Source: Burkholderiales bacterium
GTDB lineage: Bacteria > Pseudomonadota > Gammaproteobacteria > Burkholderiales > Burkholderiaceae_D
Assembly: GCA_016200845.1 (NCBI GenBank)
Contig: JACQDW010000075.1
Location: 1-32,163 of the forward strand
Direction: 5' to 3'
Length of the DNA stretch: 32,163 bases
The position numbers and the translations under genes were made by a program. Below, piece after piece: positions 1 to 30,239 of this stretch. A model generated the notes under the pieces. The model was not told the DNA's origin. It saw nothing but the letters and a program-made list of their open reading frames with translations, and made no database searches. Position 1 is the first letter of the stretch; every line of letters begins with the position of its first letter.

Positions 1-3000
1 ACGTTCGCCCTGGTGCAATTCAGCGATGTAACCATCGAAAGGCACATAGTCCAGTCCATTTGCGTGAGAGCCGTTCACAATCAAAGGCTTAGTGGTCGTT
101 TGCGCTGCCCCTTGCTGTGTCGCAAAAATCTCGGCAAACTTACGCAAGCCTTCGTACGCCTCTGACGAATTCGCGTCTGTTCCTCGCCTGTCAAAATCAA
201 CCGCAGCCTGATCCAGACGGCCGACAATTTCACCCACGCCACGCTGATACTCGACCAGGCTGCTGGTATTCTTGCTAAGCAGTTCCAAATAGTCTTTGGT
301 TAAAGCTGGCACGTCTTTAATATCGGCGTTATCTAGACGACTCTTTGCCAAGGCTAATTTCTGCTGACCAGATAACCCGGACTGAGCGCCAAACAGCAGC
401 TCATCCCGCGCCGACTTCATCGTCTTGGCGAGGTCATGGAAGGATTTGGCGGTCGCTTCCAGGCTATTGACCGCCGCATTCATCATTGTGCCCAGAAGCT
501 CCGTTTTCTCAGCGGCTGCCGATTTGGTGGCTTCGGCTGCCTTCGCTTCGTCTTGCAGGGCATACAAGCGCTTTTTTAACGCGACCGTTGACTCATTCAA
601 GCCCGACAGTTCTTTCTCTCGCAATTGCGCCACACTTAACTTTGCATTGAGTAATTCATCGATCTGACTTTGCACACTTGCATTGGTCGAAGCCAGAGCT
701 TCAGCCGCCGCCTTTTGCGTCGCAGCCAAACTTTCTGCTGCAGCCTTCGCATCGAGAGCAGCCTGCGCCTCATCCTTTAACGCATTGAGGCGGTTAAACA
801 GTTGCAGCGTTGATTCCGCCATGCCTTGAGACTCAAGGGCACGTTGTTGTGCGAGCGGCATCGACGCCTTAATGAGTACGTCAATTTCGCGTTGATACGT
901 TAAATTTGCTTGTTCAATGGTTGCCGCTGCTTGCTTACTCGCTGCTGCAAGTGCCTCGTTTGCTTCCTTTTTCGCTTGCGCAGCTTGTACCTGGTCGTAC
1001 AAGTCCCGATTGCTTTCACTCACTGTGTTGCGTTGCTTATCCCTCAATTGCGCCGAGGTCATGGTTAGCTGATCCAATTGATCTTGCAATGCTCTTCGTT
1101 CGCTCAAAGTATCGACTACCGACTTCGCCGCGCTCGTGGTTTTCTCCAACTCAGGATGCACTTGGGCGAACGCCTCTGCGACATTCATCAGACCCGCATA
1201 GGTTTTAGCGCCTGCTTCGGTCGCCAAGGCACCGCTGTTGGCCAAGCCAAGCACCGCGTCCTTGAACTGCTGGCGTGTCGTAATGTCAGCCTTGCCGAGT
1301 GCCGCCATTTCCTCCGCTACGCGTTTTGCAAGCGGAGCCAATTGTTCGGCCTCGGTTAAATATGTCTTTGAGAAAGCATCGGTTTTTTGTGCAAGCGTCT
1401 CGATACCGCCCATCAATCCGATTAAGCGCTCCCTGGCTTCGATAGAGGCATGACCGACCGCCCCAAACTGGGTGCCGATTGATTGCAGCACGTCATCCAA
1501 CTGGGCGTAATGATTGGCGATACGCAAAACAGTTTGCGCATACCCTTCACCGACTTGCCTGAATTTGTCGTACTGTGGAAACGCTGCTTGCGCCATCTCA
1601 TCTAAGGATTTTGAGATCACCCCATTTAGGGCATCCGTCAAAGCCTGGCCCGATAGCCCTTTTAACGACACCTTGGTGCTGGTCAGCGTTAAATTATCCA
1701 GCGTCTTAATGATCTCTTCGGATGAACCGCCCAGTGCCTTATTCGCCTGCTTGAGCGCGTCACCCATATTCGCAAAGATCAATCCGAGTTGAGATGACAG
1801 CTCGGCGCTTAGGTTTTGTGATTGAACGCTGTTTGTTGTGCTCTTCTTCAACCCAAACCAACTGGAGCTAGTCACGTCCACGCTGGCATATTGATTGAAG
1901 CCCCGTCCTGCTTGCAGATCACTGTATTTGCCGCCAAACTGCACGCCGGAATCAACGACGTTTTGCGTAGTCTTGCCCCACAAGCCACCAAGCCAGCCAG
2001 CTAACTTACTACCCACCAAGCCGACCAGTCCGCCCGTAATGGCGGAAAGCCAATTGGGGATAGAGTCAAAAAAGTCGCCCAGCTTTGATCCGCGAGAAAT
2101 GGTGCCTGTGGCGATACCCAGATTGCCGCCATCGATCACGCCCCGGTCGCGCACGACAAGATTCGTAAAACCAGCCATCGACGATTCGATATTTTTTAAC
2201 GCCGCCAGCATGCCCTGATTCACGGGCAACAGGCGGCTTGATGTCTGGCTCATTTCCTCTATCGACTTAGTGATAGTCTCTGATTTTGCCGCCAGATCGC
2301 CGAATACCGACCCCGTGCCTTGCTGCTTCTGCATTTCCGCCGCGCTCATGCCGCCACCGGAGCCGCCCGAGCCAAAGAAGCCCGTTGCAAAGCCGAGCGA
2401 AGCCATCACAGCCGCCATTGCCGCCATCCGGGGGATTGCGGTGTAGGGATCGCCTTGCGCCTGGCTGGCGATGCCGACCACGGCGGCCGACATGCCTTTC
2501 GCCAGATCGGAAGCCAGCTGCACGATGCGAAAGGCGTTTTCTGCCGCTTCCAGAGCTTTATATCCGCGTGTTCCCTCGGCGAAGAAACTCTTGGCCGCAC
2601 CAGCGATGTTGGCATAATTATTGATCTGGGCACGCGCCGAGCGCTCATTGATCGCCGCCATGTCCTGGGCGTATTTGATCGGGTTGCTGGATTTGCCCAG
2701 TTCGGCATTTGCCCTGGCTTTCGCCAGCTCGGCTTCAGTGCGGGCGTATTCTTGCAGGTGCGAACTTAGCTTCTGTAATGCGTTACCTGCCGTGCCAAAT
2801 GCGCCCGCCAAGGCATCGCCAAAGCTCTGCGCCTTGGCCGGGTCTAAAAAGGCATCTAGCTCTTTGCGTGCCTTTTGGATTTCCTCGGTATTGACCTCAA
2901 CCACGATTTGTTGTTTGCGCTGGTTCGCCGCCTCAATGGCGCGTTGAATTTGTCCCGCCTTATCGGCTTCAAAACCTTTGGAGTTCTCAATTTCTTTGAT

Positions 3001-4872
3001 TTGCTTGCGCAGACCCAGCTCAATCTTAAATTGCTCAATCGCGATCTTGCGCTCGGTTTCGGTCTTGCCCAGCAGCGTCACTTCCAATTGCCCCTGTTCA
3101 TTCGCCGCCGCCAATGAGGTGATATAGGCGTCTGTTGCCTGCACCATCTTAAAGCTGGCTTCGACCTTGGCCGCAAACTCATCCCTGAATTTCTTAGTGC
3201 GTTCTAATTGATCTTTTTCAGCGATAGCCAGGACATTGTTCAGATCAATCTCCGACGCCAGCGAACGGGCAAATTCACGTTGCGCGGCAGTAGCGGTCAG
3301 CTTGCCTTCGCGCAGGTCGGTGTCGAATTTAATGCGCAGCTTCTGGCCTTCCGTTAAATTCGCACTTTGCGTCAGCTCCGCTTGCGACGCCGCGAACTTT
3401 TCTTTCATGGTCAGTATCAGCGACTGGTAGGCGCTTTCCTGTTTGTTTAAGGTGTGGTTCTTTTCCTTGAACTTTTCATTGATTTCTTTGATGGCCATCG
3501 CGTTCGCCGCCACGGCCTGGCGATAGCCTTCCGACGTTTTAGTCAGCCCGGCGGTCGCTTCGTCAAACTTCTTCGCTTCTTCTTTTAACGCCTGCGCCTT
3601 GGTTTGATGGTTGCCTGCATTGATGTAGGCTTCTAGCTTATCGCTTTGTTTACGGGCTTCTTCATCTGCTCGAATTGCTTTGCCTTCTGCTGCTGCAACT
3701 TCGTTTTCTGCACCGACGACGGCCATAAGTGCTTTTTCGCGAGCCTTTAACGCCGCAATTTTGAGTTCGGAATTTCGATAAATTTCATTGTCAGTATTTC
3801 CAGAATTTCGCTTGTCTTGCTGATAGCCTTCTTCATTAGAGAGCATGACTCGCACTCTCTTAAGTTCATCATTTTGAGTTTCTTTTCTACCGAGCCCTAG
3901 CATGGCATCCCAAGCACCTTTAGCACTTTCTTTTACGGAATTCCACGCACTTTCAGTGGCACTAAGGTTATCTTTAAGTTGATCACTCTTTTTGTTGAAT
4001 GAGTCGATGTAGGCCGTTTGCGCCAAGGCGGCGGCTTCGTAAGTTTTGCCTTGCTCCAGCAGCGCCTTAATCTGATCGTAGGTGACTTTGGTCAGATAGT
4101 GATATTGCTCGCTGAGCTTTTTACTCGCTTCCAAGGGTGACTTGCCTAATTCACTGAGGTCTTTGGCGATGTCGCCGACGCTCATGCCGACGAGCTTCTG
4201 CGCCGCGCCCTTGGTGCCTTTACCCGCTTCATTGAGTTTAGTGGCCATGTCGGCCAACTGATCGGCGGTAACACCAGCGATGTTGCCCGTCATGATGATC
4301 GCCCGCTGATACGATTCAATCTCTTTGGAACCTTGATAGCAGGCATATGCCAACACGCCGACCGCTGCTGCACCGACCGACAAAGGATTAATCAGGCCAA
4401 GCACATAGCTTCCCAGCGCCTTGGCCGCATTGCCTGCACCGCCGAACATATCCTTTAACTGACCGCCTTGTTGCATAAAGACCGTCATGGGTGACTGCCC
4501 CGCCTGTAAGCTGACGACGATATCCGTGAACTGGGCAGGCACGTTGCGCATTGCGGCGGCGGTGGCGGCGGCGCTCATCGTGACTTTATTGAAATTCTGT
4601 GTGACTTGCTGTGTTGCCGCTGTTGAGGCGGCCGCGTATTGTTGCGAGGCTTGCCCTGCGCGATTCAATACGTCGTTAGCGCGAGTCTGTGCTGCAGCGG
4701 CTTCGTTGGCACCCACGACCACGCTTTTTTGCGCGGTCGTGGTTTTCTTGGTCGCGGCCACTGCGGCGTCGCCGGAAGCAGTCGTGGCTTGCGTAATCTC
4801 GTTAATCCCATCCACAGCGGCTTTATTGCCACTGACACTAATACGGATGCCATACTCAACTTGATTACCCAT
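1..4872 (-). CDS. phage tail tape measure protein (lambda GpH-like), 3' end off window
   Basis: Frame open on the minus strand in all lines checked, from ATG at 4872 to position 1 (>1600 codons; absent from ORF track because no stop in window). N-terminus MGNQVEYGIRISVSGNKAAVDGINEITQAT; AQFTDIVVSLQAGQSPMTVFMQQGGQLKDMFGG; C-terminal-type motif ANGLDYVPFDGYIAELHQGER near window start. Confidence 0.93.
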   Translation of the reverse strand, partial: MGNQVEYGIRISVSGNKAAVDGINEITQATTASGDAAVAATKKTTTAQKSVVVGANEAAAAQTRANDVLNRAGQASQQYAAASTAATQQVTQNFNKVTMSAAATAAAMRNVPAQFTDIVVSLQAGQSPMTVFMQQGGQLKDMFGGAGNAAKALGSYVLGLINPLSVGAAAVGVLAYACYQGSKEIESYQRAIIMTGNIAGVTADQLADMATKLNEAGKGTKGAAQKLVGMSVGDIAKDLSELGKSPLEASKKLSEQYHYLTKVTYDQIKALLEQGKTYEAAALAQTAYIDSFNKKSDQLKDNLSATESAWNSVKESAKGAWDAMLGLGRKETQNDELKRVRVMLSNEEGYQQDKRNSGNTDNEIYRNSELKIAALKAREKALMAVVGAENEVAAAEGKAIRADEEARKQSDKLEAYINAGNHQTKAQALKEEAKKFDEATAGLTKTSEGYRQAVAANAMAIKEINEKFKEKNHTLNKQESAYQSLILTMKEKFAASQAELTQSANLTEGQKLRIKFDTDLREGKLTATAAQREFARSLASEIDLNNVLAIAEKDQLERTKKFRDEFAAKVEASFKMVQATDAYITSLAAANEQGQLEVTLLGKTETERKIAIEQFKIELGLRKQIKEIENSKGFEADKAGQIQRAIEAANQRKQQIVVEVNTEEIQKARKELDAFLDPAKAQSFGDALAGAFGTAGNALQKLSSHLQEYARTEAELAKARANAELGKSSNPIKYAQDMAAINERSARAQINNYANIAGAAKSFFAEGTRGYKALEAAENAFRIVQLASDLAKGMSAAVVGIASQAQGDPYTAIPRMAAMAAVMASLGFATGFFGSGGSGGGMSAAEMQKQQGTGSVFGDLAAKSETITKSIEEMSQTSSRLLPVNQGMLAALKNIESSMAGFTNLVVRDRGVIDGGNLGIATGTISRGSKLGDFFDSIPNWLSAITGGLVGLVGSKLAGWLGGLWGKTTQNVVDSGVQFGGKYSDLQAGRGFNQYASVDVTSSSWFGLKKSTTNSVQSQNLSAELSSQLGLIFANMGDALKQANKALGGSSEEIIKTLDNLTLTSTKVSLKGLSGQALTDALNGVISKSLDEMAQAAFPQYDKFRQVGEGYAQTVLRIANHYAQLDDVLQSIGTQFGAVGHASIEARERLIGLMGGIETLAQKTDAFSKTYLTEAEQLAPLAKRVAEEMAALGKADITTRQQFKDAVLGLANSGALATEAGAKTYAGLMNVAEAFAQVHPELEKTTSAAKSVVDTLSERRALQDQLDQLTMTSAQLRDKQRNTVSESNRDLYDQVQAAQAKKEANEALAAASKQAAATIEQANLTYQREIDVLIKASMPLAQQRALESQGMAESTLQLFNRLNALKDEAQAALDAKAAAESLAATQKAAAEALASTNASVQSQIDELLNAKLSVAQLREKELSGLNESTVALKKRLYALQDEAKAAEATKSAAAEKTELLGTMMNAAVNSLEATAKSFHDLAKTMKSARDELLFGAQSGLSGQQKLALAKSRLDNADIKDVPALTKDYLELLSKNTSSLVEYQRGVGEIVGRLDQAAVDFDRRGTDANSSEAYEGLRKFAEIFATQQGAAQTTTKPLIVNGSHANGLDYVPFDGYIAELHQGER

Positions 4873-4880: not shown

Positions 4881-5321
4881 TTACCGTTTCTGTTCCAACT
4901 CTTCCGCACGCCGCTGCATGCGTTCGACTCTTGCTTTATTCATGACTGCCAGTGCCGCCCGTTCCATCCATTCCAATTGCTGCACCAGGCTGACATGGGC
5001 TTTCTTTGGCACGCCGTTTTGATATTTCAGCTTGAACTCAATGGCGGGCGTCTTGATACAGGTGCGGATCAATTCGCCGTCCGGGCTGACTACGATGTCC
5101 CACTGGTTCTCCAGCGATAAAAAGAGATTTAACGCTGTCAGGTTTTCTGGCCACACCTCGTAGTCAGGCTCTTTCACATCTTCTTCGGTGGGGGCGTCGG
5201 CGATTTCGTCAAGCAGTCCCATCATTTGCATTTCTTCGGCAAATTCATTCGTGACATGCCTCGGCTTTTCCACTTTCGCACCGCCGACAACGCGCCCCCA
5301 CGCTTCGGCAGCGCCTTCTAG
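4881..5321 (-). CDS. DUF1799-like second half of the tail assembly chaperone, expressed as a -1 frameshift fusion (gpGT-like)
   Basis: Frame is open from the slippery site (5321) to TAA at 4881; the listed start at 5273 is an internal GTG. Confidence 0.82.
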   Translation of the reverse strand, partial: LEGAAEAWGRVVGGAKVEKPRHVTNEFAEEMQMMGLLDEIADAPTEEDVKEPDYEVWPENLTALNLFLSLENQWDIVVSPDGELIRTCIKTPAIEFKLKYQNGVPKKAHVSLVQQLEWMERAALAVMNKARVERMQRRAEELEQKR

Positions 5322-5327
5322 TTTTTT
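5278..5327 (-). promoter_or_regulatory. programmed -1 ribosomal frameshift signal
   Basis: A AAA AAC at 5327-5321 in frame, spacer TAGAAG, stem GCGCTGCCGA/TCGGCGGTGC (10 bp incl. two G-U), 17-nt loop. Confidence 0.85.
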
Positions 5328-5662
5328 CTGACGGAATTGTTAATTGTCGCGAAGAAGGCATTCACCATCGTCGGGCGTACCGGGAAGGTGTTGATCAAGG
5401 CAGCGAAGTTATCCGCGTTAAATTCGACCGGATTGCCGTTTTCGTCTTTGACATCGTCAAAGCCCACCGTGACTTCATTGAGCAATTCGGTATCGTTCAA
5501 GCTCTTCTCTTGCAGGCGTTCGTGGATACGATCCAGTTCTTGCTGGGTCACGCGCTTAAAACGTGCCTTGAACACCTGAGTTTTGACCTTACCATTGTCA
5601 TCGAGCATATCGACGCGGATATCGGTCAGGTAGGATTGGGAAACAGAGCTGAGTTTAAACAT
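5318..5662 (-). CDS. phage tail assembly chaperone, zero-frame product (gpG-like)
   Basis: 114 aa ORF between tail tube and tape measure genes; ends ...AGA AAA AAC TAG. Confidence 0.82.
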   Translation of the reverse strand: MFKLSSVSQSYLTDIRVDMLDDNGKVKTQVFKARFKRVTQQELDRIHERLQEKSLNDTELLNEVTVGFDDVKDENGNPVEFNADNFAALINTFPVRPTMVNAFFATINNSVRKN

Positions 5663-5751
5663 GATAGGTCTCTTTACTTTGGGGTTTTAAAATGCCGTCC
5701 GGTGGCTAAACCGGACGGGCAGGCGCTTCAAACACTAAATATGTGCAACGA

Positions 5752-6699
5752 TTACAAACAGGTGAGCGTGACTTCGTCATTGCCCGCCACTGGCACGGGT
5801 GACAGTGTCAACTTGTAGGCCGTTAAATCTTCTATGGAGTCGTAATCAACCCCGACGATACGTGCCTTCAAGTCGGTCTTGATCTTCTTGCCTGCCGCGC
5901 TGCCGTGCGTCACGCTGATCGGCACAGTAACGCCCGATTCAGCCAGGGCGTAAGGGTTGAACACGGCCAGAGTCGGCGCCAGCACTTTGATGGATGCCGT
6001 CGGTGCACGGTCATTGATGGCGATCTCGTACTGTGGACCAGGCAAATCCAAGCGCGAAATCTTATTGCCCAGCCCCCACTCGAATTCCGAATACGCGAGA
6101 TTGACCCCATTGACAGAGATTGGACTGGTGTTTTTGCTGTTCACCGCTTCTTCGATTGCCCAACCCGTCTTCGTTACCGCTGGCATCGCGCCATCGGCTG
6201 GGGTGACATACACGGCGTCATAGCTGACCGTCATCATCGGCGTGCCTTTGGCGTTTTGCTTCACCTTCAGTTCGCCGCGCATGCCCAACAGTTTGTGCAA
6301 GACGTCGCCGATATACATATAGGCGCACAGGCTGCCAAAATTGCTGCTGATCAGGTTGTAGGTCACGGAAACGCCTGCAGACACAGTCTCGGCAAAGCCG
6401 GTTGCCATAATGAGCGATGCCCACTTTGGCGCAGTGCCCAAAGCACCGGACGGCGCAAGCGCCACGTCGAAACTGAGCTTTGCCCATTGGCTGACGATGA
6501 TGCTGCCACCGCTGCCCAGAGTATCCATGACGATATTGCGATCTACCTTATCGACATCCATAGGACTGAGACTGACGTTACGTGCTTCAATCCAGTTCGC
6601 CGCACCTGTCGGTGTGGAATCGACGCCATACGTCGCTTCCGATTTCACCAGTACCGCTTTACTGCGCCATTTGCGCGGTTGTGCCAAAAGATTAGCCAC
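5752..6699 (-). CDS. phage tail tube / major tail protein
   Basis: 315 aa, MANLLAQPRKWRSKAVLVKSEATYGVDSTPTGAANWIEARNVSL; directly upstream of chaperone genes. Confidence 0.8.
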   Translation of the reverse strand: MANLLAQPRKWRSKAVLVKSEATYGVDSTPTGAANWIEARNVSLSPMDVDKVDRNIVMDTLGSGGSIIVSQWAKLSFDVALAPSGALGTAPKWASLIMATGFAETVSAGVSVTYNLISSNFGSLCAYMYIGDVLHKLLGMRGELKVKQNAKGTPMMTVSYDAVYVTPADGAMPAVTKTGWAIEEAVNSKNTSPISVNGVNLAYSEFEWGLGNKISRLDLPGPQYEIAINDRAPTASIKVLAPTLAVFNPYALAESGVTVPISVTHGSAAGKKIKTDLKARIVGVDYDSIEDLTAYKLTLSPVPVAGNDEVTLTCL

Positions 6700-6904
6700 G
6701 GTTCTTCTCCTTGCTTGCTACTTTCTTTGTTTCAGGTTCCTGCTGTGTGTTTTCAGCAGGGGCGGATTCATCAAAAGGCTGTACCCGCTCGCGCAAACCT
6801 GTTGCCGGGTTCACGATGAAATGGCCGCCTTTCCCCCATTCGGGGCAACGGGTGAAATCCTGCTCACCTGTTGTGTTCTCTTGATTTTCTTGTTCAATAC
6901 TCAC
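6692..6904 (-). CDS. hypothetical phage protein
   Basis: GTG start overlaps upstream TGA (GTGA at 6904-6901); VSIEQENQENTTGEQDFTRCPEWGKGGHFIVNPATGLRE. Confidence 0.6.
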   Translation of the reverse strand: MSIEQENQENTTGEQDFTRCPEWGKGGHFIVNPATGLRERVQPFDESAPAENTQQEPETKKVASKEKNRG

Positions 6905-7320
6905 AGCAAACTCCTGTCGTAATAGGACGTTAAATAAAGGTCTTGCCACCACACATGCCCATCGCGGAATGCAAGTAAGCGACTTGCCCCGCGCTCGAAA
7001 GGGTCAAACTCAGCGGATGCCTGCCAGCCAAAGACTTGCTCTTTCACCTTCTTGCGCAAGGCATCCAGTGCGCCGCGAGCTGCCGCGCCCTTGGTGTCTT
7101 TCAGATTCTTGACGACGAAGGCCACACCGACCGTCGCTTCCACCCGCTGCACCAGGACATCGGTTTGCGATTTACCCGGTCTTTCGTCCATCAAAAGCAC
7201 AAAGCAGGCAGGCGTCACCAAGGGGTTACTCTCCGCCGCAGCCTGAAAATCAGCCGCCTCGCCGACAAACTTCAATTCCGGCACGGTCTGCTTGATGCGC
7301 TCTTTTAACGCGTTAATCAT
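6901..7320 (-). CDS. Mu gp37-like / tail terminator protein
   Basis: 139 aa, MINALKERIKQTVPELKFVGEAADFQAA; position after DUF1320. Confidence 0.7.
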   Translation of the reverse strand: MINALKERIKQTVPELKFVGEAADFQAAAESNPLVTPACFVLLMDERPGKSQTDVLVQRVEATVGVAFVVKNLKDTKGAAARGALDALRKKVKEQVFGWQASAEFDPFERGASRLLAFRDGHVWWQDLYLTSYYDRSLL

Positions 7321-7715
7321 GGACGACCATCGCGTTTAAAGACTGCATTGCCGCCGCTCAGCATGACCACTTCCTGTGCGCTGTTACTGACTTGAGCAAC
7401 ATCTGACTGCAATTTGACGCGGCCATGCGATACATCCTTGAGCCATGCCACTGCATCTTCGTAATCGCTTCTGGCGCGTTCGGTTGCGGCATCGCCCAAC
7501 AACTGATAGCGGGCAATAGCGCAAGCAATTTGCGGCAGGTTTTGCGGCACGCTACTTAGGGGCAAGGTGTAGCGACTGGCCAGATACCCGTTGATCAAAG
7601 CGTCAGCGTCCAGCAATGCCTGGTTGACTGCGCCTGCAGGCAAGGCAGACTCGCGTTGCTCCAGTTCGTCCGTGCCGTAGCGCTGTTCAAGATTGCTGCG
7701 GGTGGCGTAGCTAAT
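7317..7715 (-). CDS. DUF1320 (Mu gp36-like) protein, probable ATT start
   Basis: ISYATRSNLEQRYGTDELEQRESALPAGAVNQALLDADALINGYLASRYTLPL; conserved N-terminus lies upstream of the ORF-track start. Confidence 0.75.
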   Translation of the reverse strand: MSYATRSNLEQRYGTDELEQRESALPAGAVNQALLDADALINGYLASRYTLPLSSVPQNLPQIACAIARYQLLGDAATERARSDYEDAVAWLKDVSHGRVKLQSDVAQVSNSAQEVVMLSGGNAVFKRDGRP

Positions 7716-7723
7716 GGCTTGTC

Positions 7724-8071
7724 TTAGCCTTCCACCCGTTTAACGATGAGCAGTGGCTCGGCTTCCAGCGCGGCGATCTGCTCATCGGTCAACTCAGCCA
7801 AAGCAACGAAAGTCGCTTCGCTCGGCCAAGCGCGACCAGCCCGGCGAAATCCCGCCTGCTTCGATTGCACTTCGAGACCAGCGATGCTTTCGCGCTTTGC
7901 GCTGGTGGCGTCGGAGGATGTCGCGTTTTGTTCTTGCGTTAAATCTGGATTGTCGTTTTGTGCCAGTGAGCCTTTGCCCTCTGGCTGTGCGACGTTTGGG
8001 CTTGCATCTGCTGGTGCAGTCTTCTTTGCCTGACTGGTCACCTGAGTAGCCTTGTTGTTCTTTGTTGCCAT
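7724..8071 (-). CDS. Mu gp35/HI1506-like protein
   Basis: C-terminal GFRRAGRAWPSEATFVALAELTDEQIAALEAEPLLIVK. Confidence 0.7.
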   Translation of the reverse strand: MATKNNKATQVTSQAKKTAPADASPNVAQPEGKGSLAQNDNPDLTQEQNATSSDATSAKRESIAGLEVQSKQAGFRRAGRAWPSEATFVALAELTDEQIAALEAEPLLIVKRVEG

Positions 8072-8082
8072 GACGACTCCTA

Positions 8083-8394
8083 CTAATTGTTTGTTTCAGA
8101 CAAGCGCTGGCGCAGCAGATAGCCTTCCAAAGCCCAAATTTTGTTGCGGGCTTCGTCGCGGGCGATCTTGCGACCGATGCCCGCGTCGAAATTTGCCTTG
8201 CTGGCGGCAGCGCTCTCGCCGAGCACCGTGTAACCGTTCTTGAGATAGAGGCAGCACACGGTCAGGGTCGAATCAGGGAACACGTGATAGGCCTCACCGA
8301 TAATCACGGCATCGATGTCGGCAGGCGTTAAGCGCGGGGCAGTTAAGCCCTTGGCTTGAATGTCTTGCTCGATCACTTGTTCATTGATTCGCAT
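8083..8394 (-). CDS. hypothetical phage protein
   Basis: 103 aa ORF in collinear head operon. Confidence 0.6.
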   Translation of the reverse strand: MRINEQVIEQDIQAKGLTAPRLTPADIDAVIIGEAYHVFPDSTLTVCCLYLKNGYTVLGESAAASKANFDAGIGRKIARDEARNKIWALEGYLLRQRLSETNN

Positions 8395-8442
8395 GGCTGC
8401 CTCAGTCTTTCAATTACTTAGTTAATTGGTTAGGGGCGCGGC

Positions 8443-9363
8443 TTACACCGTGCCAGTGGAGCCGTATGCCAACTGCCAGAAGCCATAGCCGCCCGCTGCA
8501 CGTGCTTCCGCGCCGAACTTGAATTTCTTCCGGCTGAACACGTCGTCGGCCTGCGGGTCGATCTGCTGCACGAAGACCGGGGCTTTGCGTTCCTGATAAA
8601 TGAATGGTTTGACTGGCTTGTTGGTGTCGAGCAAGAACCAGGCGGTCTTGGAAGTCAGGCGACCATCTACCACCACTTCAAAGGCATTGCGATAAGGATT
8701 CGGCTTACCGTCTTCCAGGCGTTCGGCGGTCATCAGGATATTGGCGGTGGCCTTCAAGGCTGGCGGCACCAGCAAGACATTCGGTTTAATGTTCAACGGG
8801 CGACCTTCGTCGTCTTTGAACTCCATCATGGCGGTTTCAGCCGCGCCGAGCGATGCCTGGGCTGCGGCCTGCGTAGCGCAAGACAAGACTGCCGTGCCTT
8901 TGTTGCTGATGGAGTCCATCGTGCCATCTTCTTTCTTGACCGGATGATCGATGTCGATGAAGTACTGGCCGTCATAGCACTTCGCGCTAAAGCCGTTATT
9001 GACCAGGGCGATGACAATTTCGTCGGGCAGTTGTGCCGCCGATTGCGCCGCCATTTCGGCTTGCGGACCATAAATGCCCAAATTGTCATCTTCAATATCG
9101 TTGCGATCCACTTCTACGGTAGCTTCGAAATCGTCATTGACGACCGAATACTTAAAGCCTTCCAGAGCTTTAACGTTCTTTTCGCCGATCCACTTGCGCA
9201 TGCGCGGAAAGTTGGATAACCAAGCGTAATCGTTCTGGCCTGTGGTGGACGGCACTTTCATGGCAATGCGTTGCCATGTGCTTTCTGTCGCAGAAAAAGT
9301 ATTGTTAAAAGTGGTCTTCAGCGAAATGAACAACGCCGAAAGGGTTTCTTTATTGATGAACAT
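8443..9363 (-). CDS. T: Mu-like major head subunit (gpT)
   Basis: MFINKETLSALFISLKTTFNNTFSATESTWQRIAMKVPSTTGQNDYAWLSNFPRMRKWIGEK. Confidence 0.93.
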   Translation of the reverse strand: MFINKETLSALFISLKTTFNNTFSATESTWQRIAMKVPSTTGQNDYAWLSNFPRMRKWIGEKNVKALEGFKYSVVNDDFEATVEVDRNDIEDDNLGIYGPQAEMAAQSAAQLPDEIVIALVNNGFSAKCYDGQYFIDIDHPVKKEDGTMDSISNKGTAVLSCATQAAAQASLGAAETAMMEFKDDEGRPLNIKPNVLLVPPALKATANILMTAERLEDGKPNPYRNAFEVVVDGRLTSKTAWFLLDTNKPVKPFIYQERKAPVFVQQIDPQADDVFSRKKFKFGAEARAAGGYGFWQLAYGSTGTV

Positions 9364-9415
9364 GATCAATCCCTATGAGGTAATGAATGAGAAATGCTGT
9401 TGTGGGTAAGCTGGC

Positions 9416-20869: not shown

Positions 20870-20884
20870 TTCGCTTCTTGATAC

Positions 20885-22068: not shown

Positions 22069-22619
22069 GCTTCCTCCTTATTTCTGGGTTTCAGGTTTAA
22101 CGCTTGACGTACGCTGTCCGGCATCGCCGTTCTTATCGCCGGAATATCCAACTTGGAAAAACCTTGCGACACCTCTTGACGATGGCTTCCTTCGCCAGCG
22201 ATTCCTTTGCGTTGATTCTCTTTAGCCTGTTCCTGCCGGGCTTCCAATTTTTCTGAAGCGCCGATCAAGACCTGGAGCAAATAACCGTGCGTTTTTAACG
22301 GCAGTTGCAAATTGCCTCGGCTGGCCAACACGGTTTCAATCGCCAACTTCCAACTCTCACGCGGTGCGGCATAATGCTGGCCGTTGCGTGTGATCTTGCC
22401 AGCCTGAACCATAGGAATTAACTCTTCCAACAGCACTGCGACACGATCAAAACTCAGGCTGCGCTTAGCAGGCCGGAATAACGCGAGGTATTGAATCAAG
22501 GCCTTACCCAGCGTTAAATCCATGCCCATCGCAGCCGCAATGGCGGAACGGGCGGCGTCATGGTTGATCATCGCGTCCAAGCTCATTTCTGCGCCGCAGG
22601 CGGGGCAAGCGGTACGCAT
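22065..22619 (-). CDS. hypothetical Mu-like early protein with N-terminal CPAC zinc-ribbon-like motif
   Basis: MRTACPACGAEMSLDAMINHDAARSAIAAAMGMDLTLGKALIQYLALFRPAKRSLS; start 2 nt after the preceding TAG. Confidence 0.75.
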   Translation of the reverse strand: MRTACPACGAEMSLDAMINHDAARSAIAAAMGMDLTLGKALIQYLALFRPAKRSLSFDRVAVLLEELIPMVQAGKITRNGQHYAAPRESWKLAIETVLASRGNLQLPLKTHGYLLQVLIGASEKLEARQEQAKENQRKGIAGEGSHRQEVSQGFSKLDIPAIRTAMPDSVRQALNLKPRNKEEA

Positions 22620-22620
22620 G

Positions 22621-22797
22621 CTATTCCCCACACACTTTGACAACTGAGCCAACAGAGCCGAGGCCAGTCTCAATTTGCACATCAACGACTTCTTCCCAGC
22701 GCTGCTCTTGGATTTCAAAACTTATGTCTGTCACCAAATAGACCGGGTAGTAATGCGGAAACTTCGCCAGTTCCAGTATCAATTCACCGACTGTCAT
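22621..22797 (-). CDS. 58-aa small protein, not in ORF track
   Basis: MTVGELILELAKFPHYYPVYLVTDISFEIQEQRWEEVVDVQIETGLGSVGSVVKVCGE; tightly packed between neighbours. Confidence 0.65.
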   Translation of the reverse strand: MTVGELILELAKFPHYYPVYLVTDISFEIQEQRWEEVVDVQIETGLGSVGSVVKVCGE

Positions 22798-22799
22798 GA

Positions 22800-23015
22800 T
22801 CAGACGCCTCCCAGTTTGTTTAACTCGGCACGCGCCTCGACGCGACGCATCAACAAGCTCTTGCGTGCAGCCTCTGCTGCTGTTTTGTTGGCGTCCACAT
22901 CCGTTAAATAGTCGCCCAAGGCTTTATATTCTTGGTCGATGACATAGATATGCAATGCGATAGCAGCACGCCGGATGGCGGTCAGCATGGGCTGTACATT
23001 AATTAATGTCCTCAT
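22800..23015 (-). CDS. hypothetical protein
   Basis: 71 aa in early operon. Confidence 0.6.
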   Translation of the reverse strand: MRTLINVQPMLTAIRRAAIALHIYVIDQEYKALGDYLTDVDANKTAAEAARKSLLMRRVEARAELNKLGGV

Positions 23016-23022
23016 GGTGCAC

Positions 23023-23268
23023 CTACGCGGTTTGGGTGGTAAGAACAGCCTTCATTTCCTTGATCGAAAGCCCGCTTTCTTCGTGGGCGCTGATCAACAT
23101 GCTTGCACCGACAGGCAGCCTGCCGTGACGAATCTTGCTGATCACAGGTGGCGCCACTTCCAGCACCCGCGACAAACCCGCATCGTTTTTTAACGTCATG
23201 GTTGCAAGCAGTAAATCAAGAAATGCGTTGTTGTTGCGTACCTGTTCTGCGTTCAATTTCGTTTTCAT
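23023..23268 (-). CDS. small HTH (Cro/CI-like) protein
   Basis: TLKNDAGLSRVLEVAPPVISKIRHGRLPVGASMLISAHEESGLSIKEMKAVL. Confidence 0.7.
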   Translation of the reverse strand: MKTKLNAEQVRNNNAFLDLLLATMTLKNDAGLSRVLEVAPPVISKIRHGRLPVGASMLISAHEESGLSIKEMKAVLTTQTA

Positions 23269-23774
23269 GCTGCCTCCTGCGTAGTGTTGATTTGTGGGCC
23301 GCCGACAACTGGCAGCGGCAAGGTAACTTTGTCGATGATTCCGGCTTGTTGGACTGGCGTTGCGTCAACTGCACGCGCCGCCGCTTTTAACGCGTTCTTC
23401 TTTGGCGTCGCTGCTTCCTGAACCAGTGGCTTAGGCTTAAAGGCGCATTGCTGACAGGCTTGCCACTGCATCATTTGCCGTGGGTTGTGGGTCGGCGCTG
23501 CACTGAGCGCATTTTCGCGACAGATGCTGATGCCGACGCTGTGCCCACTGTGGGGGCATTCCATTTGCTCAAAGGTGCGGCGGTAGTCGCGCTCGATGTG
23601 CGCCGTGCTGGCAGCCCCGGTGCCATACGCACCGCAGCCGTTCATCACTTGTGAGAGCTTGGCGCGGCAGATGCCCATCTTCTTTGCGACATCGGCCTTC
23701 GTGCTGTTATCAACCTCACGCTGCAAGCCCTTGAACCAGTCCAAGCCCATGTAGTCACATAACTTCATCTTCAT
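23265..23774 (-). CDS. hypothetical HTH-containing protein
   Basis: KADVAKKMGICRAKLSQVMNGCGAYGTGAASTAHIERDYRRTF. Confidence 0.7.
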   Translation of the reverse strand: MKMKLCDYMGLDWFKGLQREVDNSTKADVAKKMGICRAKLSQVMNGCGAYGTGAASTAHIERDYRRTFEQMECPHSGHSVGISICRENALSAAPTHNPRQMMQWQACQQCAFKPKPLVQEAATPKKNALKAAARAVDATPVQQAGIIDKVTLPLPVVGGPQINTTQEAA

Positions 23775-24393
23775 CTCCTTTTTCTTCAATCCACATCACG
23801 CGATTCTTGTTGGGGTCGTACACTTGCTTGGTACGCTGTACCATCGGCGCACGTGGCCCGGTGTCCATGTTTGGCTTAAAGCGGTAGCGCCCTGGTCGTG
23901 CACGTCGCCCCAATACGGGTGCTGTGACGCATTCGAGATACCCGGCATTGGCCAACATGAGGACATAGGTCTTGGCGGTCTCTTCTGCGACTATTTGCGA
24001 GCTGGTGCTGGCAAATGCAGCGAGTTCGCGATAATCGAAGTTTTGCCCCTTCAACACACGACGCAGGGTTCCCCACATCGCTTCATTGACGCTGCCTTGG
24101 GTGACGACTTCCCCTTTCTTGGTTAAGCGCGGCGCTTCCACGCCGTTGTCTTTGATCAGGGCGTAGATATTGCGCTTACACATCGTACCGACCGCTTCAC
24201 TGTCAATGACTGCGATAAAGCCCGCCTTGAGAAGGACTTTGACGTAGTCTTTGACTGCATCTTCAGACACCTTGCCGCGCTCTGCGATCTGTGCCTGGGT
24301 GAATCGGTCATGCTGCTTGCGTATCTGCGCCCACACTTTTTGACGCGGCGACTTTCCGCCACTCATTTCTTGTTCGGCAGGTAATCTGGCCAT
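23755..24393 (-). CDS. hypothetical early protein (winged-helix-like)
   Basis: 212 aa between MuB-like and HTH genes; RFTQAQIAERGKVSEDAVKDYVKVLLKAGFI. Confidence 0.7.
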   Translation of the reverse strand: MARLPAEQEMSGGKSPRQKVWAQIRKQHDRFTQAQIAERGKVSEDAVKDYVKVLLKAGFIAVIDSEAVGTMCKRNIYALIKDNGVEAPRLTKKGEVVTQGSVNEAMWGTLRRVLKGQNFDYRELAAFASTSSQIVAEETAKTYVLMLANAGYLECVTAPVLGRRARPGRYRFKPNMDTGPRAPMVQRTKQVYDPNKNRVMWIEEKGDEDEVM

Positions 24394-24395
24394 CG

Positions 24396-25163
24396 TTAAA
24401 TCTTCCTTTTTGGATGGGTGGCGGAAGGCAAGGCGATCTTTTGCAATGCCGCGAAGGTGACGCTGTCCATGCCCTGCGTTAAACAGTGTTCATGCAGCTG
24501 GTTAAAACACTTCACCACGCTGCTGACCGAGCCTTTGGCAAACTGCACCAGGGCTTCCACGGCATTGGCGTCAAATTCGATGTTGGGGCAGTAGATCGGC
24601 GCTAATTTGTAGGCGTCGTCCACCGTCACATCCTTGGCTTCTGCCCAGGCTGATACGCGGCGATAGAGTTGCTTAAACTGCGGTCTTGCCATCGCATTCG
24701 GTAGCTGCTCTTCACCGACCAACAGGATCGGCGTCTGGGTGGAATCAAACAGTTCGCGGGTGATCTGCGCCAAAATCGGCTTCTCGATGGCGCGGTTAAA
24801 TTCATCCAGAATCAAGACGCGCTTGGATGCGGCTAACTGGCTGGTGACTGCATCGAACAAGTCGGGAATCGTCGAGTTATAGCTGTAGTCCACCTTCATT
24901 TCTTCCAGTATCTTTTGCAGGAAGGTTTTCTTCGTCCAGACCGCTTTCATCTGCACAAAGTAAGCGCGTGTGTCGAGCGCCAAGGTGTTGCTGCTAAAGG
25001 TCTTTCCCCAGCCGCTAGGGCCATACAGCACCCCGATGCCGTCCATGCCCATGCGGCGATTGGTGAGCTGCTCTAGGGTGGCCGCGACCAGATCGAAGGT
25101 CGCGATAGCAGCGACGCCGCCGCGCGGACGTGCTGTGTTTGCCTTGCTATTTTGCTGTGCCAT
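24396..25163 (-). CDS. B: MuB-like AAA ATPase transposition protein
   Basis: Walker A GPSGWGKTFSSN; Walker B RVLILDEFNRAI; adjacent to the transposase. Confidence 0.93.
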   Translation of the reverse strand: MAQQNSKANTARPRGGVAAIATFDLVAATLEQLTNRRMGMDGIGVLYGPSGWGKTFSSNTLALDTRAYFVQMKAVWTKKTFLQKILEEMKVDYSYNSTIPDLFDAVTSQLAASKRVLILDEFNRAIEKPILAQITRELFDSTQTPILLVGEEQLPNAMARPQFKQLYRRVSAWAEAKDVTVDDAYKLAPIYCPNIEFDANAVEALVQFAKGSVSSVVKCFNQLHEHCLTQGMDSVTFAALQKIALPSATHPKRKI

Positions 25164-25183
25164 AAGTCATAATCCTTCTGTAG

Positions 25184-27364
25184 TTAGTTTTGGTTCATAC
25201 AAAGCACGGTTGCCGCCGTGCTTTGCTCTTCTTGTGTCATCGCCTGATGACGTTTGTAAAACATCGTGAATTCATTTGATTGCTGGTACATCCCGTACCA
25301 TCTGGTCTGTTGCGCGTCTTCGATAACACCTCCCTCATTGAGTAATTGATCCAGTGCCATCCAGCGGGCAAAGCGTTGGTGCGGCTGTTCCGGCAGATCA
25401 ACGACCTTGCTCTCTTCTGCCTCTGCCGTTACTTCCTTAAATTCTGTGTAGGTCACGCCTGGTGCGCTGACCAAGATTTCTTGGTCTTGGTCTAACGCCC
25501 ACTTCTCGCGGATTTGGTCGATGTTGGTCGGAATGACCACGCCTTGCGACACCTCTAAAGCCAAGGCGCCATCGCGCTCCGCATGAATCTCCGTTAAGCC
25601 ATTGAGCAGGCGTTTTTCACGTCCAGCCGTGCGTTTTTCTTGTGCCTGCTGTACAAATGACTTAGGCATGTAGGGCGCGGCATTGGCATCCAGCTCGGCG
25701 CTACAAATCAGGCGACCATCGGCGTTGTAAATCCATACCGTCTGCGGATCGTGAATGTCATATGAGACCGCCATTTGCTCACCGTTAAACTCCGTTAATG
25801 CGGCGTTGAAATAGCGCATACCGAACAACTCAACCTCGGCACGGCGCACTGAGCGCATCATTTGCGGCCGGAATAAGGCTATGCCTTCTTCCTTGCTGAC
25901 GTGGTGCGGCGTAAACCCTTTTGCTTCCGCCAGCGCCCAAGCTTCGTTCGGCGCTTGATGGCGTTTGCGACCAGTCGCCGGGTCGATCATCTTAGGCAAG
26001 CTGCGATGTGGGCGATTGTTATACGCGTTAAATTTGCCGTTAATGAATTCGATAAAATGTGACCAGCCCATCAACGGTATCGTCGCCACTTCGCCTTTTG
26101 TTTTCGCTTTTAACGCATTGCGCGACAGCTTAAAGACGTTATGTTTCGCCTCGCGATCCATGTCCGCGCCCATGTAGCCAGTGATTTCCTTGGCCGCCTT
26201 GGTCAGCGTCTGGTGAAAGCGTTCGATCACACCACGCGCCTGGGAGTTGTACGGCAGGCTGTGCACCATTTCAGTACCGAGCCGCGCCATTACTCCCGTG
26301 GCCTTGTCCTGCATCATTTGATTGACATAGCCTGAGCCGTTATCGACATAAAAAATCGCGGGTATGCCGCCAGTCTCGACCGCGTGGCGCAAGGCATCCA
26401 ACACCACCAAGGCACTCTCATTGAGGCCGATAGACCAGCCAACGGCGCGGCGGGTCGCGATATCGATGACCGTGGTGATCTCCGGCCGGAAAGGGCGTCC
26501 GTGCAATGGGTGCTGCACTTCCGCATCAAATTTATGACCGTCGGCGCTGTACACGTCTGAGGGCAACAGATCATCAAACGTGCGGCGCACAAAGGATTTC
26601 AGGTTTTTCAACTCACGATCACCCATACGCCCCACTTGCAGGCTGACGTTGCCGATCTTCTTCAAGAAACGGCGCACCTGGTGAATGCTGGGGCGATCCA
26701 TCGCCGCATTGGCTTCCACGAATAATTGATAAGCGTGCTCTACCGTTGGTTTTTCAGGCTTTTGATAGTAGCTAAGGAAGCTCTCCGCCCAGACAGGCAC
26801 GGCCATATTGGCTTCACGCTTCTTCGGTACGATACAGCCCGCCTTTTGGTATTCGACCAGGCGCAACAAGCTACGCTCACTGGGCAAGCCGTCTGCGCTT
26901 GGCTTGCCACGTCCATCCCGTGCCAGGCGCAAGGTTGACAAGAGTTGATCGCTCACTTCGCCGCGTCTCGCAAAGTCCAGCAAAGTACGCGCCGCTTTTT
27001 TTAACGGATAACCTGTACGCTTCATGATCGAATTTAACGCGTCTATCACGCCTTTACGGGCATCTGCCGTTAAATTCTGTTCGTCGGTATAACTACCCCT
27101 GCTCTGCACGACAACGGAGGTCGTCACTACGGCTGGCGCTAAGGCGACCAACTGCTTCGCGGCAGAATCGCGAATGGCAGCCATGACTTCAGCGGAGGGG
27201 ACATATTCGCGACGCTTGCCGCCACGGCCAGAGACCTCTTTAAAAGCCCAGGAGCAACGATCAGCGTAAGCAATGATGTTTGCTTTTGAACCCGGCAAGC
27301 CTGGTATCGACATACCAGCCAGTTCAGCGGCGCTGTAGTGGGTTTTAATCGTTACTTGGCTCAT
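25184..27364 (-). CDS. A: MuA-like DDE transposase
   Basis: 726 aa; N-terminal Mu-type DNA-binding domain; catalytic core VYSADGHKFDAEVQ...IFYVDNGSGYVNQMM...HSLPYNSQARGVIERFHQTL. Confidence 0.95.
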   Translation of the reverse strand: MSQVTIKTHYSAAELAGMSIPGLPGSKANIIAYADRCSWAFKEVSGRGGKRREYVPSAEVMAAIRDSAAKQLVALAPAVVTTSVVVQSRGSYTDEQNLTADARKGVIDALNSIMKRTGYPLKKAARTLLDFARRGEVSDQLLSTLRLARDGRGKPSADGLPSERSLLRLVEYQKAGCIVPKKREANMAVPVWAESFLSYYQKPEKPTVEHAYQLFVEANAAMDRPSIHQVRRFLKKIGNVSLQVGRMGDRELKNLKSFVRRTFDDLLPSDVYSADGHKFDAEVQHPLHGRPFRPEITTVIDIATRRAVGWSIGLNESALVVLDALRHAVETGGIPAIFYVDNGSGYVNQMMQDKATGVMARLGTEMVHSLPYNSQARGVIERFHQTLTKAAKEITGYMGADMDREAKHNVFKLSRNALKAKTKGEVATIPLMGWSHFIEFINGKFNAYNNRPHRSLPKMIDPATGRKRHQAPNEAWALAEAKGFTPHHVSKEEGIALFRPQMMRSVRRAEVELFGMRYFNAALTEFNGEQMAVSYDIHDPQTVWIYNADGRLICSAELDANAAPYMPKSFVQQAQEKRTAGREKRLLNGLTEIHAERDGALALEVSQGVVIPTNIDQIREKWALDQDQEILVSAPGVTYTEFKEVTAEAEESKVVDLPEQPHQRFARWMALDQLLNEGGVIEDAQQTRWYGMYQQSNEFTMFYKRHQAMTQEEQSTAATVLCMNQN

Positions 27365-27465
27365 GCCAAGCCTCCAGACAAAAATAAGGCGAGGGGTGAT
27401 CTAGTTACTCTAAAATCACCTGGCAGGCTCCACTGCAAACAACTCAATTTCACAGGACACCCCTC

Positions 27466-27744
27466 ATGGAACAAATTTCGACAGAACAATGGAATGACGT
27501 CGTGACAGAACTGACCGTTATCCGCGAAGCATTCGCCACCTTGATCTACACGCTGGCGCGTAGCCAAACCCTGCGCCTGGACGAGTTCGATGCCCAACTC
27601 CGTTTGACCGCAAGTAAGTTGGACGAGCCAGACATCGCGCAAGCCTTGACACAGTTCGGCAAGCTGTTGGCGCATAACGTTGAAATGGCGCATCTTGACC
27701 TTTCGCTTAGCGCTGTACGGAAGCGACGCGATGCAACCGAGTAA
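27466..27744 (+). CDS. hypothetical protein, plus strand within the early operon
   Basis: MEQISTEQWNDVVTELTVIREAFATLIYTLARSQTLRLDEFDAQLRLTASKLDEPDIAQALTQFGKLLAHNVEMA; plausible composition, AGGA upstream. Confidence 0.7.
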   Translation: MEQISTEQWNDVVTELTVIREAFATLIYTLARSQTLRLDEFDAQLRLTASKLDEPDIAQALTQFGKLLAHNVEMAHLDLSLSAVRKRRDATE

Positions 27745-27940
27745 AAGGACGCCAGTTAGCCCTGACGTAGTCTTCCAAGACATCAAAATAATCCAGCGAG
27801 GCGCCGCAATCGCGGCAAGAAGAGATATCCTGTTCGCCCATTGCGAACGCCTCGTCTATGGTCATCTCGCAACCGCAAGCGCACACCGTAAGACGACGGG
27901 CGAAAACGGTTGAAGTAAAGTTGTTGTTAACTTGGTTCAT
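27707..27940 (-). CDS. small putative zinc-binding protein
   Basis: CACGCEMTIDEAFAMGEQDISSCRDCGA. Confidence 0.7.
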   Translation of the reverse strand: MNQVNNNFTSTVFARRLTVCACGCEMTIDEAFAMGEQDISSCRDCGASLDYFDVLEDYVRANWRPFTRLHRVASVQR

Positions 27941-28431
27941 GGCGCATCTCCAAATAAGGAAAGTTCAGGCTGGGTTACTTTGAGCACGTTGCCGCGCTGG
28001 TAAGCCAGTTGGGACAGGGTTTCAGTCAGGGCGGTCACGGTGTCTTCCAGCGCTTCGCCGTTTTGATAAAAGCGCGCCAGTAAGGTGATCGCCTCGGAAA
28101 AATTGCCTTGCAAGGCGGCCAGATCGGTGACATCGGCCTTTTTACCGGAAGGGATAGCGACTACCACCTTGTCACCCTGCGCCAGGCACAGGTATTCGCT
28201 GATAAAGGACGCGCCGCAAAAGGTCTCGAATTGCCGGATTTTGTTTAACGGCATGGAGGTATCCGACAGCCAGCGATACAGCGTCTTGATCTCCACCCCC
28301 ATCAAATCGGCCAATACCTTGATCGGGCGGCGGTTTTCTGTGGCAAATTCAATACATAAATCCATTGCATCCGACAAGCTGGCGGCGCGTACTGTTTTCC
28401 ACTTTCTTTTTCTCGGCATCATGTTTTTCAC
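27937..28431 (-). CDS. early regulatory-type HTH protein
   Basis: RPIKVLADLMGVEIKTLYRWLSDTSMPLNKIRQFETFCGASFISEYLC. Confidence 0.7.
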   Translation of the reverse strand: MKNMMPRKRKWKTVRAASLSDAMDLCIEFATENRRPIKVLADLMGVEIKTLYRWLSDTSMPLNKIRQFETFCGASFISEYLCLAQGDKVVVAIPSGKKADVTDLAALQGNFSEAITLLARFYQNGEALEDTVTALTETLSQLAYQRGNVLKVTQPELSLFGDAP

Positions 28432-28806: not shown

Positions 28807-28857
28807 TGTTTGCCTCTGGTGGTTGAATCAATGGACGCATATTAAGTGTATTGATCT

Positions 28858-28870
28858 GTATTGTCAATAC
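28858..28870. promoter_or_regulatory. candidate operator palindrome in ner/repressor divergent region
   Basis: GTATTG-T-CAATAC perfect dyad. Confidence 0.45.
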
Positions 28871-29009
28871 GGTTTTAATCGAAACAGTTTAAATTTTTTA
28901 CTCCAATCGGGAAAAACATATAAGTAATTGATTTTAAGGGACTATTTCATGTTGAGTATTTCAAACAAAGCGTATTGCAATCATTACGGTTTCGTTGCGA
29001 GTAACTGTT

Positions 29010-29453
29010 ATGGGTAAAAAGAAATATTCAGCAGCTGAAATCGCCGCAATGAACTTGCCTGGTTTGCCCACAACGAAGGCAAATGTGCTGGCACGCGCCG
29101 AAAAAGAAGCATGGCCATACGAGACTACGGTTGGTCGGGGAGGAGCAAGGAAGATGTTTGAAATTCCTAGCGCCTACCAAGCTGACTACAAGCCTTATGA
29201 GAATGACTCGCAGCCTTTAGCTAAGCCTGCGGCGACTACCAAGGTTGTAGGTGCCATCACGGGTGGCGCAATTGTGAATTCGAAACAATTAGCCACCGCT
29301 ATGCGTGCGCTAGATGAATATCTGAAGGAAAACGGCCTTGTGATAGACGAGCCTGAAGTAAAGGCAAAAATTGTGGCAATCCTCTATAAATACCTACAAA
29401 AAGGTGCCGAAGGTGAGGATGTGCAAGAGTTGCTGCAAGTGATGATGCGATAA
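29010..29453 (+). CDS. Mu-type repressor-like protein (Mu-type HTH)
   Basis: MGKKKYSAAEIAAMNLPGLPTTKANVLARAEKEAWPYETTVGRGGARKMFEIPSA; divergent from ner. Confidence 0.82.
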   Translation: MGKKKYSAAEIAAMNLPGLPTTKANVLARAEKEAWPYETTVGRGGARKMFEIPSAYQADYKPYENDSQPLAKPAATTKVVGAITGGAIVNSKQLATAMRALDEYLKENGLVIDEPEVKAKIVAILYKYLQKGAEGEDVQELLQVMMR

Positions 29454-29477
29454 CGTTAAACTTTTTATCTAAAACCT

Positions 29478-29939
29478 ATGAAAATTCTCAAATGGCTTCT
29501 AATTTTGCTTGTCTCAATCCCTATTGTATTGATCACTAGCGTATATGTAAGAAATAAGGCTATAGGGCCTGCAGGATGGGCTGAAGACAATACTGTCAAA
29601 GCGCTTAAGGCCTATATGAAAGACCCTGATTCGATGGTTGTACGGTCTTCTTACACCCTGTCTTCAACAAATGCCGATGGCGATATGGAAATTCGCATTT
29701 GCGGAATTGTGGATGGGAAAAATAGCTTCGGCGGATATACAGGAGGGACACGTTTTGTTTCAAAGAGCGTACGAAATAAGAGATTTGAAACTTTTGACAC
29801 AAACTTCGTTAAAATTGAAGATTCTGAAGAAACGGCACGTGCATTAAAGTTAGAAATGCTTTCCGGATTTGATAAGGTCTATTGGAACGAATACTGCGTC
29901 GATTCAGCGCACCCACCAACAAAGCCAAGTAAATTATAG
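29478..29939 (+). CDS. signal-anchored hypothetical protein (cargo/moron)
   Basis: MKILKWLLILLVSIPIVLITSVYV TM segment; between repressor and phage terminus. Confidence 0.7.
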   Translation: MKILKWLLILLVSIPIVLITSVYVRNKAIGPAGWAEDNTVKALKAYMKDPDSMVVRSSYTLSSTNADGDMEIRICGIVDGKNSFGGYTGGTRFVSKSVRNKRFETFDTNFVKIEDSEETARALKLEMLSGFDKVYWNEYCVDSAHPPTKPSKL

Positions 29940-30239
29940 GTAGATAAATCTCAAATAATTTACTCATAGCGCTACTAAATGCAACTTGCCCCAATATAAA
30001 TATTGCTTTCTCCGTTACTATTGTGTTTTTAGGCAATATTAGAAGTGTATTTTATTTGATGGGGGAAGATGCAGACGTTATCGCGTTAAAGTCACTGTTA
30101 TCAAAAGCACGCAGGACTAAATATGAAGAGCACGTGTCAGTAAATCAATTCGGGAAAGTGCGAAATACTTTAACGCCCGCCGCCAACGATTCAATTTATC
30201 TCGAATCAGATCAGATTTCGCCAAAATCTAGCTATTCCG

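Follow-up and report, generated by a model that had tools for sequence, protein, structure and literature searches.

An exact heptamer scattered through transposable phages and elements of one host genus, and its conserved central tandem

Introduction

Several classes of short DNA words are known to be repeated across phage or bacterial genomes. Mycobacteriophage stoperators occur as many asymmetric sites across a temperate phage and are absent from its host; DNA uptake sequences and KOPS-type signals are exact words of high density, selected within genes and present genome-wide in the host. Chi sites are short, exact, asymmetric and frequent words that also lie within genes. Transposable phage Mu has a strong gyrase site (SGS), a single central element that is required for synapsis and whose right arm carries repeat motifs (PMC10052514). 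The conservation of gyrase sites in transposable phages has been called unclear (PMC8705779), and a 2018 study of phage Ab30 proposed an SGS at 18736-18772 (PMC5977238). Mu genome immunity, an element-wide distinction of self from non-self, is unexplained and is thought to require 'specific Mu sequences' (PMC7350765).

The present study characterised the heptamer TTTAACG (CGTTAAA on the other strand) in a 32,163-bp stretch of DNA, hereafter the window, and in related phages and elements. The window comes from a 3.43-Mb draft genome, 70.6% complete. By transposase, its closest named relative is an Undibacterium MAG, so the host genus is presumably Undibacterium. A sequence-only reading of the window had mapped the word and proposed candidate functions, which are taken up below where the results bear on them.

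Heptamer content of the window

The window is occupied by a D3112-like Mu-type transposable prophage encoding MuA, MuB, GemA, Mor, a D3112-type TerL, portal, MuF, G, protease I, capsid and tail proteins. The left part of the prophage runs beyond the contig, and its right end, placed approximately and not to the base, lies at ~30.2-30.3 kb, where an integrase-like fragment (30363-31232) adjoins it; small ORFs follow at 31455-31811 (within 30363-32163). Encoded on the minus strand are the MuA-type transposase (25184-27364; phrog_310, E = 2.8e-159), the MuB-type transposition ATPase (24396-25163; phrog_296), an HU-family protein of the early region (20885-21172; PF00216, E = 1.1e-29), the GemA homologue (19946-20380; PF06252, E = 1.3e-28), a Mor/C-family late activator (19506-19949; PF08765) and the D3112-type terminase large subunit (14726-16387; phrog_38). 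A Mu-type repressor-like protein with a MuA N-terminal DNA-binding domain (28995-29453; PF02316) is encoded on the plus strand. Beside it, 29478-29939 encodes a small predicted exported or membrane protein with a weak phrog_2320 match, which had no counterpart in the relatives compared and is possible lysogenic cargo. An HU-family protein is also found in phage KS10 (gp23, L209).

The exact word occurs 59 times in the window (1 per 545 bp) and is its most frequent 7-mer, with 33 copies read as TTTAACG on the plus strand and 26 as CGTTAAA, hence without orientation bias; 58 of the 59 lie at or below the prophage end at ~30,300. In the tail genes (span 575-3752), TTTAACG starts at 575, 776, 1661, 2195, 3584 and 3746, and CGTTAAA at 898, 1687 and 3352. 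Across tail and head genes (5128-9913) the respective starts are 5128, 7304, 7739, 9169 and 9907, and 5416, 5821, 6928 and 7937; a tandem pair follows at 11116 and 11127. The MuF/portal/TerL region (11836-15343) has TTTAACG at 11836 (intergenic), 12220, 13387 and 14182, and CGTTAAA at 13590, 14388, 14628 and 15337, while the lysis/Mor/GemA/HU region (17060-21181) has the former at 17060, 17710, 18109, 19983, 20141, 20446 and 20904 and the latter at 17593, 17772, 18081 and 21175. Through the early region with MuB and MuA (22096-28250), TTTAACG starts at 22096, 22294, 23189, 23386, 26109, 27000, 27033 and 28244, and CGTTAAA at 22512, 22902, 24394, 24477, 25783, 26026 and 27068; in and beside the left-end genes (29454-30175), CGTTAAA starts at 29454, 29807 and 30084, and TTTAACG at 30169. 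The single CGTTAAA in the integrase-like gene (30410-30416, minus strand) is probably outside the prophage, at host background density. The earlier map was accurate for all 33 TTTAACG coordinates, for 24 CGTTAAA copies and for that at 30410, and missed only the one at 29807.

Dinucleotide-preserving shuffles of the window (n = 100) gave 3.8 ± 2.1 heptamers (maximum 10), codon-order shuffles of its genes 3.5 ± 1.8, and synonymous-codon shuffles of 40 genes 4.8 ± 2.0 (maximum 12 of 500), against 50 observed in coding DNA. Codon-preserving shuffles, which the sequence-only reading had proposed as a check on its claim that codon usage is insufficient, thus failed to reproduce the count, and that claim holds. 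Its statement that codon phase varies is borne out as well, enrichment being found in all four orientation/codon-phase combinations observed, and copies in non-coding DNA are real, with eight heptamers inside or overlapping gaps. The exact word was enriched 10.5-fold in the window, compared with 0.45- to 1.55-fold for its 21 one-base variants. Gaps between heptamers were near Poisson, and a search for even spacing found none. The flanks were nearly information-free, apart from a weak preference for C/G directly after the word, and no 10.5-bp phased flanks were found at the scattered heptamers, which are therefore not ordinary gyrase wrapping sites. Here and below, expected counts derive from simple Markov models. 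Codon shuffles in eight elements back them: besides the window, six further phages and one of the 8-kb elements likewise exceeded their shuffled counts.

Selection and restriction to transposable elements

When 22 window genes were codon-aligned with those of five relatives, the heptamer was nucleotide-identical in 27 of 33 cases where the peptide context was unchanged, whereas other 7-mers with unchanged peptide were identical in 17-25%. Only a minority of heptamer sites were common to two phages: individual positions turn over, yet the density is maintained. The heptamer is a selected DNA-level signal, under purifying selection with turnover, and not a matter of codon usage; the synonymous-site comparison thereby confirms what had been called likely from the sequence.

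The whole assembly contains 462 heptamers including the 59 of the window, leaving 403 outside, or ~1 per 8.4 kb. Whether the word belonged to phage or host, a point left open by the sequence-only reading, is thus decided in favour of the phage; the equal density across the host chromosome that would have marked a host signal was looked for, and the host proved to be at background only. In three relatives (G374, G124, G109), heptamer density was 1-3 per kb across the prophage and changed sharply to background at its edges. Pooled counts were 231 heptamers inside against 22 expected, and 31 against 20 in the host flanks. Five non-transposable prophage regions of the same genus (TerL_ATPase) had 31 against 19 expected, and lacked both the scatter and the tandem described below. 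A host-wide signal is refuted by the 403 copies in 3.4 Mb and by the flank counts; the high heptamer density belongs to transposable elements.

A conserved tandem between genes G and I

The copies at 11116 and 11127 form a tandem pair, CGTTAAACCCGCGTTAAA, of two units with an 11-bp period (11116-11133, minus strand), reading CGTTAAA-N4-CGTTAAA in the transcribed sense. It lies in the gap between a gene G-like virion morphogenesis protein upstream (11248-11775, minus strand; PF05069) and the head maturation protease I downstream (9862-11010, minus strand; phrog_328, E = 5.9e-107). Among 78 non-redundant related phage loci, CGTTA-N6-CGTTA (period 11) occurred in 48, exactly once per locus, compared with 0-11 matches for other periods of the CGTTA pair and weak secondary peaks at 12 and 20-21. 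The pair, which had earlier been treated as one more intergenic copy, is instead a conserved, helically phased element. Its units are spelled CGTTAAA, CGTTAGA, CGTTAAC or CGTTAAT; it is present in D3112 and JBD30, occupies the G-I gap wherever both genes were found, and was 4.0-6.6 kb beyond the start of TerL in the loci measured.

Like an SGS, the tandem has helically phased repeats and sits in the G-I gap, close to the centre of the genome. The Mu record places the annotated gyrase cut site (17879-17880) within the same gap, and the Mu arm that follows the cut site contains TTTAAAACG, TTTAAACCG and TTTAACG. By position and analogy, the tandem may correspond to the SGS. The Mu SGS differs in that it occurs once, at the centre; the word studied here is in addition scattered element-wide, at sites that have no phased flanks. 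In Ab30 (L174, LN610590), the interval 18736-18772 is an insertion-free, palindrome-containing stretch of 37 bp just after gene G, ahead of accessory genes; the conserved tandem lies at 19639-19656, ~0.9 kb beyond the proposed SGS, and is an alternative SGS candidate.

Occurrence among phages and short Mu-like elements

In 12 phages pooled, the exact word occurred 427 times against 32 expected (13.3-fold); of its variants, TTTAACA (3.0-fold) and TTAAACG (1.8-fold) were clearly above chance, and the others ranged from 0.8- to 1.5-fold. Motif-rich phages comprised the window, G374, G124, G109, G172 and G001, the last an IMG/VR record and the remaining named G-series phages from Oxalobacteraceae genomes. 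They also included the IMG/VR phages L103 (26 against 0.9 expected), L090 (26 against 1.1), L126 (37 against 2.2) and L096 (17 against 0.9), together with L104 and L073; several IMG/VR records are fragments. Motif-poor phages were D3112, JBD30, G241, G349 and G387, as well as Mu (12 against 8.8, not enriched), B3, KS10, a Klebsiella Mu-like phage and VW-6B. Host genus g40 holds one motif-rich and three motif-poor phages, so host genus alone is not decisive. The tandem-bearing D3112, JBD30, G241 and G349 have little or no scatter, and tandem and scatter can therefore be uncoupled. In L072, CGTTAGA occurred nine times against 1.4 expected, two of them in its tandem, and in L148 CGTTACA occurred seven times against 1.1, one in its tandem. 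These two phages are suggestive of a scattered word that co-varies with tandem spelling, a covariation that D3112 does not have.

A search for CGTTAAAN4CGTTAAA in 44 genomes of the host genus recovered, besides prophages, three elements of ~8 kb, here G233 (L193-L195), G338 (L196-L198; G338:C74, ~24.3-33.0 kb) and G354 (L199-L200). They encode an XRE-type repressor, MuA (PF02914), a MuB-like ATPase, GemA, a Mor-like protein and a short protease-I-like protein, and no terminase, capsid or tail genes were found in them; they are possibly satellites or reduced transposable phages. Scattered heptamers numbered 17, 17 and 12 in G233, G338 and G354, respectively, against 1.6-2.5 expected, and the tandem lies off centre, at ~0.7 of element length. 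The elements in G338 and G233 adjoin rsmH/ftsL. An unbiased search of the 44 genomes for PF02914 transposases returned only these three elements, whose transposases are barely alignable with those of the window type, so that two deep lineages are represented. All seven transposable elements found in the genus, namely the three 8-kb elements and four window-type prophages, were motif-rich. Two more tandem matches in the genus (G224, G304) had neither scatter nor Mu genes, and their number is no more than chance would give.

Genes that track the trait

Across 21 phages, no gene was present in all motif-rich and missing from all motif-poor members. The mosaic phage G172 (L051-L052) combines early genes of motif-poor type, with a MuB nearly identical to that of L126, and G374-like late genes; it carries 35 heptamers, early region included. 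MuA, MuB, Ner and the repressor were rejected as determinants, as G172 is motif-rich despite the motif-poor type of all four. The HU-like phage protein, one of the readers suggested earlier, had to be dropped, its gene being missing from G172. TerL tracked the motif in 10 phages and then failed, because D3112/DMS3-like phages with ~79% identical TerL have no scattered sites. Portal, capsid and protease were likewise rejected, the window versions being nearest to those of motif-poor phages.

On gene trees of the 21 phages, the trait required two changes for GemA and Mor, four for MuB and TerL, and five for MuA, so the GemA-Mor part tracks it best; exceptions are G387 and the window's own Mor. 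In a second, larger phage set, GemA, Mor, TerL and DUF1804 tied at four changes. The AlphaFold2 model of GemA (pLDDT 81.6, pTM 0.48) has two three-helix domains, and a PDB structure search with it gave no significant match. GemA may be regarded as a weak candidate for reader or partner. The same word is found across very diverged GemA proteins and transposases, which favours a host reader, or one common to the elements of one host.

Discussion

The heptamer is exact, restricted to transposable elements, shared across deeply diverged lineages of one genus and coupled with an 11-bp tandem. Being dense in a virus and in diverged elements, selected, and not enriched in host DNA or in the other prophages sampled, it resembles an address tag for mobile DNA that has gone unrecognised. 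Our preferred, though tentative, explanation is that TTTAACG is recognised by a sequence-specific DNA-binding factor that acts on the topology of the whole element or on its self-recognition. The tandem is the best clue to its role. Binding of such a factor would be strongest at the central tandem and weaker at the scattered copies, and the bound factor would mark or organise the element as one supercoiled domain; this domain or mark might help to unite the ends for replicative transposition, to tell self from target DNA, or both. The reader is more likely to be shared by the elements of one host, such as a DNA-topology or nucleoid protein, possibly with GemA, than to be a repressor, transposase, MuB or terminase. 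A role in controlling transposition, broadly understood, is possible.

This mechanism would fit the domain and self-immunity ideas advanced for Mu, in which an element-wide distinction of self from non-self is proposed to need specific sequences (PMC7350765); unlike here, no such distributed word is enriched in Mu. That Mu, B3 and KS10 live without scatter is a point against the explanation. Among the matches listed in a search of the open-access literature there was no report of TTTAACG as a motif, nor was a description found of any transposon or phage that bases self-recognition or domain formation on a distributed sequence. DNA uptake sequences and KOPS-type signals differ in that the heptamer is at background in host DNA and has no strand bias; the Neisseria DUS was looked for in the window and is absent.

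It is unlikely, on balance, that the tandem is a late (PI-like) control element and the scattered copies are extra GemA or Mor sites. Beyond the small number of trait changes on their trees (two against 4-5 for MuA, MuB and TerL), both genes are present in the 8-kb elements, and GemA, which almost all transposable phages encode, sensitises injected DNA to Gabija. However, the window's Mor is nearest to that of motif-poor phages (63-65% to G241/G387), the Mor of G374 is only 32% identical although both phages share the word, and the word is unchanged in the 8-kb elements, whose GemA is 21-24% identical; G387 breaks the GemA pattern, and the GemA fold search was not significant.

We consider a modification target quite unlikely. 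On this reading, an enzyme of the host or phage would methylate the heptamer or modify it in another way, and selection would keep it dense since modification protects or marks the element. All-or-none recognition of an exact asymmetric 7-mer is typical of modification enzymes, and the heptamer has this exactness; TTTAACA (TGTTAAA), the sole variant at 3-fold, could stem from decay of a methylated C in CGTTAAA, but the G/C at this end frequently falls on a synonymous third codon position, and this too accounts for the variant. No methyltransferase was found among the window and other phage proteins scanned, and none emerged as common to motif-rich phages. Host DNA and other prophages are neutral for the heptamer, restriction selects for fewer sites, and the conserved 11-bp tandem would be left unexplained.

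A Chi-like site, regulating a RecBCD-type nuclease and so letting linear transposable-phage DNA survive, is very unlikely. The heptamer shares with Chi an exact, asymmetric, short and abundant word on both strands, in genes too; Chi-rich phages are known (PMC12407980), and the Gam end-protection protein was found in none of the window-type Undibacterium phages tested. Unlike known Chi, however, the word is enriched only in transposable elements, neither in host chromosomes nor in other prophages of the genus, and a conserved central tandem would have no explanation. Nor is there an anticorrelation with Gam, since L090, L096, L129 and L103 have both Gam and the motif, and G241, L110 and L141 have neither.

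Highly improbable is stoperator-like silencing in lysogeny, which was among the functions first proposed and in which the repressor, or another phage-encoded regulator, would bind at sites throughout the genome. The many asymmetric sites in the prophage and their absence from the host recall stoperators, and the tandem with its 11-bp direct repeat is regulator-like. Against this, the gap holding the Ner-repressor operator (28807-28994) has no heptamer, the word is identical with unrelated repressors (MuA-N type in the window, XRE-like in the 8-kb elements), the sites are mostly within genes and unbiased in orientation (33/26), and one-base variants are not enriched, unlike degenerate regulator sites. 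Codon bias does underlie several of the other words enriched in these genomes. For the heptamer, an artefact of composition or codon usage is practically excluded by the codon shuffles, one-mismatch controls, intergenic copies and conservation test.

We return to a recognition site read across the element and propose, as a reading we hold with somewhat less than even confidence, an element-wide, exact 7-bp self-address, nucleated at a phased central element and common to otherwise unrelated transposable elements of one host. The word is selected, countable and synonymously editable over whole elements, and together with a tandem present across many D3112-type phages it makes gyrase-site conservation and Mu immunity directly testable. 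If it is truly a self-address, the heptamer would represent a new type of sequence-encoded self-recognition.
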